From Thermosediminibacterales bacterium (GTDB lineage: Bacteria > Bacillota > Thermosediminibacteria > Koleobacterales > JARRCM01): a stretch of DNA of 64,000 nt. The notes under the pieces were generated by a model, which saw only the letters and a program-made list of their open reading frames with translations, was not told where the DNA came from and ran no database searches. Positions 2,665 to 18,955 of this stretch are shown here, piece by piece (the first letter of the stretch is position 1; each line of letters opens with the position of its first letter). The position numbers were made by a program, and so were the translations under genes. The stretch is from NCBI GenBank assembly GCA_029982205.1, contig JARRCM010000004.1, positions 1 through 64,000 of the forward strand. The letters run 5' to 3'.

Positions 2665-5600
2665 CTAATGTGCCGCAAGCATATAACTTCCGGGTTTTAT
2701 TATCTGCCCGGTAAAGCTGCCGTAATACCACCCGCTGTATTCGGTAACTTTATCCCATTTCCTGTTTTCCGGGTCATATCTATATAAACCAAGATGTTTT
2801 TTGTTTAACCCCGTGTATTTTTGATAGTCAAAATTAATAGTGAATTGATTATAGTAGTTGAGGTCATTAATATCAGTAACCTCTTTTCCCACATGTCTTT
2901 CAAGCTTAAGGGTGTATATGTCAGACAAAGGTTTATAACCTCTTGGCAGTGCTGCAATCATTTTTTCTTTTTCTCTCTTTTCAGTTTTTTGGATAATCAC
3001 GCGTATTCCCGCTTCTTTCTTTTCTTTAAGGTTAAGGTTGCTGATTTTCTTTCTCATCATATATGCAGATAAGGAAAGCTCATATTCTTTTGAAGATATT
3101 CTAAGTTCTGTGTTAAGGTCTTCTATCACATCATTCGTCATGTTTATTACGGTTCTGTTTATACGGTTATATTTTTCATCTATTTCAAGCCGTCCGTTTT
3201 CAAGGGCTTCTTCGCTGTTTATGTTGATGAACAATCCGTTTCCTTCTGTTATAATTTCTTCTTCCTTTACATCTTCTTCAAAGTCTCTTTCATCTGTTCG
3301 AGCATAATCTCCGTGCGTAAAATCAGATTTTCCAAGTTCATTTACCGCCCTTATACGGAAATAGTATTTCGTATCAGGCTGCAAATCTGTTACATAAAAC
3401 GTTGTCCTATCAGTTTTCCCCATATAATGGTAATCATCATCACCTGAACGGCGGGCATAAACCTCGTAGTAGTTTGCATGTGTTGCAGCTTCCCAATGAA
3501 GTTTTATTGTTCTGTCATCATATTCCCGTGTGTAGAACCCTTCGGGCGTGTCTGGGGCTGTCCTTGGGGGGTTATAATAGAAACCGTTTTTCAACACCCC
3601 TTCCCCTCCGTCTTTGTTTATTACTATTACATCTTTATACCCTGCTTCATTTGCAGGTGTAACTGCTTTAATCACTGTATCACTTATTACTGTTACTTCC
3701 GCAGCTGCCTTATCGCCCAGGATTACTACCGCTCCATCAGCAAAAGCTGTACCTGTTATGGTAATCTGGGTTCCGCCTTCGGTTGACCCTGTATTCGGTT
3801 CGATACCGGTTATTGATGGATATATCTTGTAAGTAAAACCTTCTTCTAAAAGGTCAAGACCGGTATCAGGATTTATAACTATAACATCTTTTGGGCCCTC
3901 AGTTCCCGGTGGTGTCACAGCACGAATCTGTGTCGAGTCAACGGATAAAACATCTGCTCTGCTGTCGCCTATATAAACCATGGCGTTTTCCTGAAAATGT
4001 TCACCATATATAACTACTTCTGTTCCGCCGTATGTAGGGCCTGAATTGGGGTCAATTGCAGTTATTTTAGGTTCTATTCCCGGCACCATGTACTCGAATC
4101 CACCCACAAGGGTTGCCGTAGAACCATCTGAGTTTTGAACCGTTACATCTTTAACGCCCGGGGTGTTTGGAGGAGTTCTGCCCCTGATGGTGTTTTCATC
4201 AACCGCAACTACTCCTGTGGCTTCAATCCCACCGATAAAGACTTTTGCCCCGCCTGCAAAACCTGACCCTTTTATTTCAAACGGAGTTCCTCCTTGTGTT
4301 CTTCCCACGTTTGGGTTTATGTTTGATATGTTTATTGAGCTTTCTTCTACTATAATGTACTCAAACCCGTTTTCTTTTGTATACAGGCCCGTATCCGGGT
4401 TTTCTACCACTACATCTGCTTGCCCCGGGCTGCCGGGTGGTGTTACGGCAGTTATTTTGACACCTATCGTTGAAGTAACGCCATCGACTTCCTCCCCCTG
4501 GGAATCTTCTATTCTTTCCACTACAGCTTCTCTACCGCCTATCAATACCTTTGCCCCTTTTCGGAAATCTTCTCCTGTTATCGTTATTCGAGTACCTCCC
4601 ATTGTTGTGCCTTTGTTGGGGCCGATGCTTGATATCTTAGGCCAGCTTGTTGGAACTATATAAGTAAACCGACCGTCCCACCGCGCAAGACCTGTGTCCG
4701 GGTTTACCACAGATACCTCTGCTTCTCCCGCATCGTTTGGCGGGGTGGTTGCCTGAATCGTGTTAGAATCAATTACAGTAACCTTTGGGGAAGGTTCTCC
4801 TCCCACATAAACCTTGGCCTCTTCTCTGAAATCACTACCAGTAATATTTATTATTGTACCGCCGTAAACCGTTCCCTGAATCGGAGTTACATCTGTTATC
4901 TCAGGAAGAGTTGTAGGCGCCATGTATTCAAATCCCTCAGGTATGGAAGCAGAACCGCCATCAGGGTTTACTACAGTAACCATGGCTTTCCCGTGCTTAC
5001 CGGGGGGCGTTTTTGCCCTTATCTTTATAGGGCTTACTACTTCTACATCGACTGCGGGATTGCCCCCGATTATCACTTCAGCCCCTTCTCTAAAGTCTGT
5101 TCCCGTAAGTATAACATCGGTGTCGCCAAATATGGTTCCTTTATCGGGTTCTATTTTAGAAAGTGTTGGAGCACTTGTAGGTATCTTATATTCAAACCCG
5201 TCCTTCAAGATGAATTGGCCTGTATCATCAGAGTTTATAACCATTACATCTGCTTTGCCCATCTCCCCGGGCGGGGTTTTAGCGGTAATAGTGAAACGGT
5301 CTTTGACACCAACATCTGAAGCGTAATTTTCACCTATAATTAACACAGCGTCATCTTTAAAGTCGTCTCCGTGTACTGTTATAAATGTCGACCCGTCTAT
5401 GTTTCCTATATTAGGTGTTACTGAAAAGATGATTGGGGCAGTGTTTGGCACACGATAATAAAAACCGTATTCAAGTATCTTTATTCCGCCATCAGGGTTT
5501 TCTATTTTTAAATCTACGGTTCCGGCTGAATGAGGTGGAGTTTTTATCTTTATTAGAGATTCATTGATAACATGTGTGTATGGGGTTTCTATCCCGTCTA

Positions 5601-15263: not shown

Positions 15264-16148
15264 ATGGCAAAATCTGCAAGAACCGACTACCACATTCATC
15301 CAGACTATTCCACAGACGCCTCCCCGGTAAAAATATATGACTACTGCCTTAGAGCTTTAGAATTAGGGTTTACTGAAATTTGTTTTACAACTCATCTTGA
15401 ATTAGATCCTATCCAGCACTGTTCACCTCATGACCTGACCTGGCTGGACAGTTATTTTAATGAAATTGTTCAGGCCGAAAAAGATTTTAAAGCATCAGAC
15501 CTTAAAGTAAAAGCCGGTATTGAAGTAGGTTACAAAAAGGGGCTGGAAAAAGATATTGAAAAAATCGTTAAAGAGTATCCTTTTGATTTTGTACTTGGAG
15601 CTATCCACCGTCTTAACAACATTTCTATTTCTTCCATGAAGGAAAGCCCTCTGTATTTTCGTTCCCGAAACCTTGCCAAATTACGCGACGACTACTTTAC
15701 AACCCTAGAAGAAGCAGTCAAATCAGGGCTTTTTGATTCAATAGCACACATAGATATTTATCGAAGGTATGGAATTAAACATTACGGCCCTGATGTTTTA
15801 ACAGTTCATCGAGGTGTTATAGAACCGATTTTTAAAGAAATGGCGCGAAAGGGAATCGGGCTGGAAATTAATACTTCAAGCAGGCGCAGGGGATTAAAGG
15901 AGTTTCACCCTTCCAGGGAAATAATTTCATTGGCAGCTAAAGCAGGTATTAAAGTTTTTACCGTTGGTTCTGATGCACATTCACTTGATGAACTAGGGGA
16001 TAATATCGAAGAAGCCCTGACCCTTCTGGAAAACTTCAACCTTTATAATCACGTTTTCACCAGGAGGCGTGCTGTACCCTGTCTTCATAAGACAATCAAA
16101 AACAACAGAAACGGCCAGCCAACAGATAAAACGGCAGCTTCACATTAA
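15264..16148 (+). CDS. PHP-domain phosphatase, histidinol-phosphatase (HisK) family
   Basis: A 294-residue PHP-fold metal-dependent phosphoesterase. Metal-ligand motifs are visible: YHIHPDYS (His10, His12), TTHLE, GAIHRL, IAHID and GSDAH (Asp237, His239). The family includes HisK-type histidinol phosphatase, and the closest assignment by motif is that class. No histidine-biosynthesis gene is nearby. It converges on the IPCT/DIPPS gene with a 9-base tail-to-tail overlap. DIP synthesis needs a phosphatase to convert the phosphorylated intermediate to DIP, so a role there is possible but purely contextual. RBS AGAAGGGGG precedes the ATG. The C-terminal ~30 residues are hydrophilic and probably disordered. 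Confidence 0.85.
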   Translation: MAKSARTDYHIHPDYSTDASPVKIYDYCLRALELGFTEICFTTHLELDPIQHCSPHDLTWLDSYFNEIVQAEKDFKASDLKVKAGIEVGYKKGLEKDIEKIVKEYPFDFVLGAIHRLNNISISSMKESPLYFRSRNLAKLRDDYFTTLEEAVKSGLFDSIAHIDIYRRYGIKHYGPDVLTVHRGVIEPIFKEMARKGIGLEINTSSRRRGLKEFHPSREIISLAAKAGIKVFTVGSDAHSLDELGDNIEEALTLLENFNLYNHVFTRRRAVPCLHKTIKNNRNGQPTDKTAASH

Positions 16149-17474
16149 TTGGCGAATATTATAAAGCCGAACCAGGGCCTGAAGATGAGTTATGACTGCA
16201 AGAAAGAATAAAGCAGCCGGAACTAGGTTCAAAACACCTCCCAGCATAATAATAAACATTCTGCCGTCGCGATTGGCCGGGAGGTAACGAAATATCCCGT
16301 CATAGGACTCAGGTATAAAGGGCCTGCCGGTCAAGGCATGAAATTTTTCCTTGAGCAGCATAGACATTGGCAGCCCGGTTAGAGCGGCGGCACAGGCCAG
16401 CAGAACCACGGTATTCTCTGTCTTAGAATACCATGAATACGCCATACCGATAACAATTAAGAAATCTGCATATCGGTCCAAAACAGCATCCAAAAGCCCT
16501 CCATAACTGCTTTTTAAAAACTTAAGGCGGCCAATTTCTCCATCGACCCCGTCAAAAATTGAGCTTACCTGTGCTAACATCCCTCCATAAAGCGGATATC
16601 CTAAAGCAAAAAAAACAGCCGAAACCGCTGAAATTAAAAACGAAACAAAAGTTACTTGATTCGGAGTTATACCCGTTCTGGCAAACAGTTTTGTTATCAA
16701 TAGAGAGACCTTGCGGTTTAAAACACGGGAAACAAAACCGTCTTTAGGAGGTACCAGTGACCGGAGAACCATTTTTTCAGCGTGTCGGTAGCTCGGCAGG
16801 TCATCCACATCTATCCAGGCAGCGTTAATGAAATGCAGTTTCACCCTGTGCTTTGAGGCCAGCATGTTTACTGCGTCTGTAAGAGTATAGCGGCATTGAG
16901 AAATTTTGTCAGAAAGGGCTTCTAAAAGCGCCCCGGTGCATAAGAACAGGCCGCAGTCTACGGCGTTAAAATCTTGAAGCTCTTTTCCGAGTTCCAATGC
17001 ATAATCCTGCTCAAATTTAATTTTAGTGCATTCCATCAGGTCATACACGTTTTTTAAGCGCCGGTCAGCAGCCAGCAAAATTTCACCTTCATTTATTTTT
17101 TTGGCTTCAGCAATAAAAGCTTTAATGGCCTTGAGTTCAAAAACGTGATCAGACATTATTAAAACAAATTTTTCTCCCTGGCGGTATTCTCTTTGAAAGG
17201 TATATGCGGATACACCGTTCCCAAGTTCCCATTCCGGGTTGTGTAAATAGGTAATGTTTACTCCTAGTTTGTTTCCGTTCCCGAGATGGCTCTGTATTTC
17301 ACTAAAATAACAACCTGTTATAATTACAAAATCATTGATACCGCATTCCTTCAAAGCAAGAATGTTTCGTTCAATTAAAGAAAGCCCCAATAAACGCACA
17401 AGAGGCTTAGGCGCTTTAAAATGATGCCTTAGCCTCTTTCCTTCGCCGGCAGCAAGGATAACGGCCCGCATCAT
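16140..17474 (-). CDS. Bifunctional inositol-1-phosphate cytidylyltransferase / DIPP synthase (IPCT/DIPPS)
   Basis: A 444-residue fusion. Residues ~2-240 are a sugar-nucleotidyltransferase fold: VILAAGEGKRL with KAPKPLV, and the metal aspartate in IMSDHVFE. Residues ~265-440 are a CDP-alcohol phosphatidyltransferase membrane domain with the signature aspartates D308, D311, D329 and D333 (DGVDGEIGR ... GGLLDAVLD); the usual A of the A-R pair is G315. This architecture is that of the enzyme known from Archaeoglobus and Thermotoga, which makes CDP-inositol from CTP and inositol-1-phosphate, then joins it to a second inositol-1-phosphate. The ATG at 17474 overlaps the stop of the inositol-phosphate synthase gene (ATGA), with AGGAGGG upstream; an adjacent ATG at 17471 is equally possible. 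A phospholipid role is the alternative, but the fused cytidylyltransferase argues for DIP. Confidence 0.85.
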   Translation of the reverse strand: MMRAVILAAGEGKRLRHHFKAPKPLVRLLGLSLIERNILALKECGINDFVIITGCYFSEIQSHLGNGNKLGVNITYLHNPEWELGNGVSAYTFQREYRQGEKFVLIMSDHVFELKAIKAFIAEAKKINEGEILLAADRRLKNVYDLMECTKIKFEQDYALELGKELQDFNAVDCGLFLCTGALLEALSDKISQCRYTLTDAVNMLASKHRVKLHFINAAWIDVDDLPSYRHAEKMVLRSLVPPKDGFVSRVLNRKVSLLITKLFARTGITPNQVTFVSFLISAVSAVFFALGYPLYGGMLAQVSSIFDGVDGEIGRLKFLKSSYGGLLDAVLDRYADFLIVIGMAYSWYSKTENTVVLLACAAALTGLPMSMLLKEKFHALTGRPFIPESYDGIFRYLPANRDGRMFIIMLGGVLNLVPAALFFLAVITHLQALVRLYNIRQLM

Positions 17475-18671: not shown

Positions 18672-18702
18672 AACTAAAAACTCCCGATGCATAACCGGGA
18701 GT
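18672..18702 (-). terminator. Intrinsic terminator in the leader of the inositol-phosphate operon
   Basis: On the minus strand ACTCCCG pairs with CGGGAGT around a nine-base loop and is followed by TTTTTAGTTTT. It lies between the CIRCE promoter and the inositol-phosphate synthase gene, where it could attenuate transcription. An upstream GGGAGTGT (complement of 18791-18798) can pair with the 5' arm ACACTCCC (complement of 18697-18704), forming a possible antiterminator. Confidence 0.7.
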
Positions 18703-18891
18703 GTGTTTGCTTCACCCTTTACATGAACAACTAGTATAACACCTACAGGATTTTTTTGATGTGTCTTATATTTTCTTGATCAGGAAAGATACACTCCCTT
18801 AAAATGCTTCTCTTTAATAAGAGGTTCTTTTAAGAGGTGTTTCTCAACCTGTCAGTCTGAGGTTTACTCAACCTAATTCACGATAAATTCG

Positions 18892-18918
18892 TTAGCACTC
18901 AACACGAATGAGTGCCAG
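18892..18918 (-). promoter_or_regulatory. CIRCE heat-shock operator (HrcA site)
   Basis: On the plus strand TTAGCACTC, nine bases, then GAGTGCCAG: 9/9 in the first arm and 6/9 in the second against the CIRCE consensus (TTAGCACTC-N9-GAGTGCTAA), with GCACTC/GAGTGC fully paired. The last three bases deviate, but TGCTAA follows at 18919-18924. It lies immediately downstream of the -10 box of a minus-strand promoter, the place HrcA operators occupy at groE and dnaK. The only gene downstream on that strand is inositol-phosphate synthase. Confidence 0.82.
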
Positions 18919-18926
18919 TGCTAATA

Positions 18927-18955
18927 ATTGTACAACCAAAACAAACCAATTTCAA
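18927..18955 (-). promoter_or_regulatory. Sigma-A promoter with CIRCE, driving the inositol-phosphate/DIP operon
   Basis: On the minus strand TTGAAA (18955-18950), a 17-base spacer, then TACAAT (18932-18927). Spacing is ideal for the housekeeping sigma factor. The predicted start falls in the CIRCE element next to it, so repression by HrcA at normal temperature and release on heat shock are expected. Confidence 0.75.

Follow-up and report, generated by a model that had tools for sequence, protein, structure and literature searches.

A conserved CIRCE-type operator and an apparent attenuator leader upstream of a predicted di-myo-inositol-phosphate operon in Bacillota

We analyzed a DNA stretch of 64,000 nucleotides (the window) in which an operon predicted to synthesize di-myo-inositol-phosphate (DIP) is preceded by a CIRCE-type operator. 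This element is very likely a working HrcA operator, which would make DIP synthesis part of the class I (HrcA/CIRCE) regulon, with a gate in the leader RNA in addition. The initial annotation had proposed such chaperone-type control of the operon; the proposal was supported by conservation of the site in relatives and by the presence of one HrcA in each genome checked. As judged from sequence comparison, the operon would represent a new and conserved class of HrcA targets, with a hitherto unrecognised attenuator as a second layer.

Promoter, operator and genes of the operon

A sigma-A promoter on the minus strand, followed directly by a CIRCE-type operator with an exact core and a nine-base spacer, had been described in the initial annotation, and both were confirmed (Table 1). 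The operator starts 8 nt after the -10 hexamer, its GCACTC/GAGTGC core is exact, and its halves are separated by 9 nt. Compared with full CIRCE (TTAGCACTC-N9-GAGTGCTAA), the left arm has two mismatches and the right arm none. The same left arm, CTGGCACTC, has been predicted for the groESL CIRCE of Desulfovibrio vulgaris (PMC545781). An additional TTAGCA was found at 18924-18919, 6 nt 5' of the left arm. The window operator is probably an HrcA site, predicted to cover the 5' end of the transcript. CIRCE is typical of groE and dnaK operons (PMC3842655) and occurs occasionally elsewhere, for example at rpoH in Geobacter sulfurreducens (PMC545781).

Table 1. Positions of the regulatory elements and genes in the window
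Feature	Position	Strand	Evidence or remark
Sigma-A-type promoter, TTGAAA (18955-18950), 17-nt spacer, TACAAT (18932-18927)	18927..18955	(-)	promoter scan
CIRCE-type operator, CTGGCACTC-ATTCGTGTT-GAGTGCTAA	18918-18892	(-)	2/18 mismatches; kept in relatives
Attenuator-type leader RNA (apparent)	18854-18676	(-)	also in L045, L046, L049, L051-L056, L088
Hairpin P1, region 1 (18836-18828) pairing with region 2 (18804-18796)	18777..18854	(-)	fold and covariation
Region 2, antiterminator strand, GGGAGTGT	18791..18798	(-)	8 nt complementary to the terminator's ACACTCCC
Intrinsic terminator, region 3 CACTCCC (18703-18697), region 4 GGGAG (18685-18681), T-run	18676..18703	(-)	stem 18702-18680
INO1, myo-inositol-1-phosphate synthase, 363 aa	17471..18562	(-)	PF01658, E 5.7e-36
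Fused IPCT/DIPPS, 443 aa, start 17471	16140..17471	(-)	PF00483 and PF01066
PHP-domain (HisJ-like) phosphatase, convergent with the operon	15264..16148	(+)	domain matches, conserved neighbourhood

The downstream genes had been named as INO1 and a fused IPCT/DIPPS, and domain and structure matches agreed with these names. The fusion joins an inositol-1-phosphate cytidylyltransferase to a CDP-inositol:inositol-1-phosphate transferase; both catalytic domains are present, and its best PDB match was 4mnd (IPCT/DIPPS, E 8.5e-53). INO1 scored 450 bits against TIGR03450 and IPCT/DIPPS 279 bits against NF041135. Both scores fall under the NCBIfam equivalog cut-offs, for which mycothiol INO1 and Thermococcales IPCT/DIPPS served as reference, and DIP is thus taken here as the presumed product of the operon.

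The PHP phosphatase gene adjoins the operon in most Bacillota loci with a long enough contig (e.g., L038 5751-6539; L069 3978-4769), and the CIRCE operons of G002 and L069 begin with it. DIP synthesis requires a phosphatase step after DIPPS, and to our knowledge no gene has been assigned to this last step. The PHP protein is a candidate for the phospho-DIP phosphatase. In the window, its gene is convergent and outside CIRCE control, and the source genome holds eight PHP-domain matches, so this role is put forward only as a proposal.

A whole-genome pattern search of the source genome (1.9 Mb) revealed three CIRCE-like sites at ≤3 mismatches, against none for the backward control pattern over the same genome. 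The two sites other than that of the operon lie before groES-groEL (L003) and before hrcA (L002), which is present in one copy and is itself behind CIRCE. A gene for a thermosome-like (group III type) chaperonin was observed directly 3' of hrcA (L002 2-412; L214 2-442), and because of this position the archaeal-type chaperonin is probably under CIRCE too.

Conservation and variants of the operator

A search of the genome collection with an IPCT/DIPPS alignment gave 79 loci, and among 399 genomes searched in the phylum, 25 matched. We compared 23 upstream regions, namely the window and 22 relatives picked as carriers; the carrier genomes are related, and the regions do not stand for 23 independent events. 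The best site had 0-3 mismatches in 17 regions; four regions had a best site with 4 mismatches and two with 5. A scan of related genomes for CIRCE before the orthologous operon had been named beforehand as a test by which the proposal could be refuted, and it showed the element to be conserved in 22 relatives (16 of them at ≤3 mismatches) and perfect in G002. Among Markov-shuffled upstream regions, no site at ≤3 mismatches was obtained in 920, the best being two with 4. Taken singly, none of the six carriers at 4-5 mismatches is significant.

The inverted repeat would fold as an RNA hairpin, and some relatives (e.g., L051 and L052) pair inner positions around a 6-nt loop, so the likeness to CIRCE might be due to chance and the half-sites might merely form a 5'-terminal hairpin of the leader. 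However, the 15-nt outer spacing is kept and the inner RNA pairs are not. Together with the shuffling result, the perfect CIRCE before the operon in G002 refutes this explanation in practice, and we assign it a negligible probability.

Whole-genome searches of 20 relatives gave 2-6 sites per genome, and the backward control gave no sites in 17 of the 20. HrcA was single-copy in each of the 20 genomes searched for it. The operon's own site was listed in 12 of the 20; the remaining eight comprised carriers with more than 3 mismatches (L046, L047, L052, and L065), loci lacking the site (L050, L058, and L059), and L042, which has a broken INO1. L042, whose INO1 is truncated or rearranged, was left out, and a 4-mismatch site in G033 (L039 4686), approximately 500 bp before INO1, was left out of the counts.

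G002, a single contig of 3.1 Mb from the same order as the source, has four perfect CIRCE sites, which precede hsp20, groES-groEL, hrcA with a thermosome-like chaperonin, and PHP-INO1-IPCT/DIPPS. The PHP-first operon of L069 is arranged as in G002 and carries a 1-mismatch site after the -10 hexamer. In the IPCT/DIPPS tree, the INO1-first clade that includes the window (20 rows, 100/100) was apart from G002 and L069 (100/99), and the site is thus carried by two well-separated operon clades of differing gene order. Relatives keep the order of promoter and then operator; in most of them the operator lies just behind the -10 hexamer, the exception being L068, where it is upstream of the -35 hexamer. 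The operon was present with no such site in L050, L058, L059, L060, L061, L063, L090, G027, G114, G139, and G206. In the sub-clade of L050, L058, L059, and G139, which is nested in the INO1-first clade, the site was probably lost. In G001, which belongs to the same order, a decayed IPCT/DIPPS pseudogene was observed beside a PHP gene (L040 3400-4150), and no CIRCE was found on the contig carrying it; DIP synthesis has apparently been lost in this genome.

In most INO1-first relatives, GAGTGCTAA is retained as the right half, as is the outer frame TTAGCA-N15-TGCTAA. In the commonest form of the site (14 of the 23 carriers), AGCAGC takes the place of CIRCE's AGCACT in the left half, and because the inner CTC is missing from it, the affinity of HrcA for this form is uncertain. 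In sequence terms, the AGCAGC variant may be a weaker HrcA site, which would be let go earlier or more fully than groE. The operator of L046 has wrong spacing (24-mer). In L068, a TTAGCAGCC-type CIRCE variant was observed at 4647-4673 in inverted orientation, immediately 5' of the -35 hexamer of the INO1 promoter.

Another repressor, reading TTAGCAGC-N10-GAGTGCTAA, might control the CIRCE-like site of the INO1-first clade instead of HrcA. The recurrence of the CT-to-GC change in so many left halves, the reversed variant upstream of the promoter in L068, and the perfect CIRCE match of most other sites in these genomes would fit such a protein. Nevertheless, the right half and the outer geometry are those of CIRCE, sister sites are near-perfect (one mismatch in L043 and none in G002), each genome has one HrcA, and no other gene had the AGCAGC variant among the sites that the whole-genome searches of relatives gave. 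We therefore consider a different repressor unlikely and retain HrcA as the predicted regulator.

Leader RNA between the operator and INO1

The initial annotation did not mention the 5' leader of approximately 350 nt that separates the promoter from INO1 in the window and contains an intrinsic terminator, which ends the leader approximately 115 nt before INO1. The window leader was predicted to fold better than shuffled sequences (z = -3.66). Relatives share a scheme of three alternative pairings, in which region 2 pairs either with region 1 (AAUCGGGAG to CUUCUGAUU) or with region 3 (GGGAGUG to CACUCCC), and region 3 can instead pair with region 4 (GGGAGUG), which is followed by a U-run. Compensatory changes were found from GGGAG/CTCCC to GGAAG/CTTCC in L047, L053, L050, and L058, and from G-C to U-A in L051 and L055. 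Antiterminator pairs were formed in 97.6% of alignment cells versus 45-69% for slid partners, and P1-plus-terminator pairs in 91.7% versus 42-53%, percentages that favour the structure because the leader alignment (A2) was hand-trimmed around the arms. The antiterminator match is missing in L043. These results suggest that the leader is apparently a transcription attenuator, in which an intrinsic terminator competes with a covarying antiterminator and P1 is the predicted anti-antiterminator.

The terminator between CIRCE and INO1 could also mean that the promoter and operator serve a short separate RNA ending at 18702-18680, with INO1 transcribed from another promoter and DIP synthesis outside HrcA control. 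However, the promoter scan revealed no second minus-strand promoter before INO1, the terminator overlaps the covarying antiterminator, which is a mark of attenuation, and in G002, L069, and L044 CIRCE leads to the first gene without an attenuator leader. A separate RNA is therefore very improbable, and attenuation of the operon transcript is the reading that we follow below.

The PHP-first operons of G002 and L069, which have a perfect or near-perfect site, lack the leader, indicating that a weak operator and the attenuator tend to co-occur; the combination of CIRCE and attenuator is confined to one clade. With a covariance model of the leader, matches were convincing at the DIP operon alone and weak elsewhere, with one off-operon match at E 1e-3 (G072 C34, L145). 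Searches against Rfam (riboswitch, T-box, and RNA thermometer families) gave only sub-threshold hits and none reaching the gathering cut-off, and neither a leader peptide nor a conserved aptamer was recognised in the leader. The lack of conservation in the P1 loop argues against a ligand pocket there. Pairing of the CIRCE right half with a terminator arm (AAGTGC/GCACTT in L047) was considered and rejected, because L053, L065, and L088 change one partner alone. A long palindrome, CGTTTTGAAA...TTTCAAAACG, was observed shortly before the INO1 ribosome-binding site (L045 4846-4877; L053; L177).

We also considered the leader as a heat sensor acting on termination, in which heat would melt the A/U- and G-U-rich P1 and free region 2 for the antiterminator. 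In folding predictions, P1 of most leaders loosened in the range of about 60 to 80 °C, with L052 and L056 as misfits. Most RNA hairpins melt at about 60-80 °C, and in our melting calculations on the leaders thermosensing was not separable from ordinary melting. A sensor of this kind is doubtful; if it were real, the DIP operon would be under two stacked temperature controls, HrcA and an RNA thermoswitch.

Proposed regulation and its relation to known systems

In Bacillus and lactic acid bacteria, HrcA is known to depend on GroE. In unstressed cells, HrcA bound immediately 3' of the -10 hexamer would block the sigma-A promoter. On heating, GroEL would be engaged by misfolded protein, HrcA would no longer be kept active, and the promoter would fire together with those of groESL and hrcA. 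In the window genome and the majority of INO1-first relatives, the leader would then act on the transcript as a second gate, where P1 plus the terminator (1:2 and 3:4) would form the off-state and the antiterminator (2:3) the on-state, with some further signal choosing between them. With this terminator between promoter and genes, release of HrcA alone may not suffice for expression.

The arrangement shares with the class I control of groE and dnaK in Bacillus subtilis and other bacteria the operator sequence, the 9-nt spacer, the site just after the -10 hexamer, and an hrcA gene that is itself behind CIRCE. It differs in that the target is compatible-solute synthesis rather than a chaperone, and in that the operator is usually sub-consensus (INO1-first clade) and followed by a structured leader with a terminator. 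The leader resembles trp-type 1:2 / 2:3 / 3:4 attenuators and riboswitch expression platforms in that its anti-antiterminator, antiterminator, and terminator exclude one another and show compensatory changes, but differs from three-hairpin attenuators in having no recognised leader peptide or conserved aptamer and no Rfam family at cut-off. In the open-access literature, no paper joining CIRCE/HrcA with inositol solutes was found.

In Pyrococcus furiosus, the inositol-1-phosphate synthase PF1616 showed a log2 rise of 4.0 on heat shock as part of a Phr-led response (PMC10746257). This archaeal response is the closest parallel that we know: Phr likewise heads a heat-shock repressor regulon in an organism whose DIP precursor gene is heat-induced; it differs in being archaeal, with a repressor and operator unrelated to HrcA and CIRCE. 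Targets of Phr were reportedly described by Keese et al. in 2010. If PF1616 is a direct target, the archaeal Phr and HrcA systems have converged.

In this group of anaerobic Bacillota, chaperones and DIP are probably made on the same heat signal. Such control would offer a direct mechanism for the build-up of DIP on heat stress in bacteria, parallel to hyperthermophilic archaea, which heat-induce the same pathway under an unrelated repressor. The analysis also yields a leader RNA of no known family and, in the PHP phosphatase, a candidate for the step that completes DIP synthesis. The best-conserved bacterial heat-shock regulon would thereby be widened from protein chaperones to a chemical chaperone.
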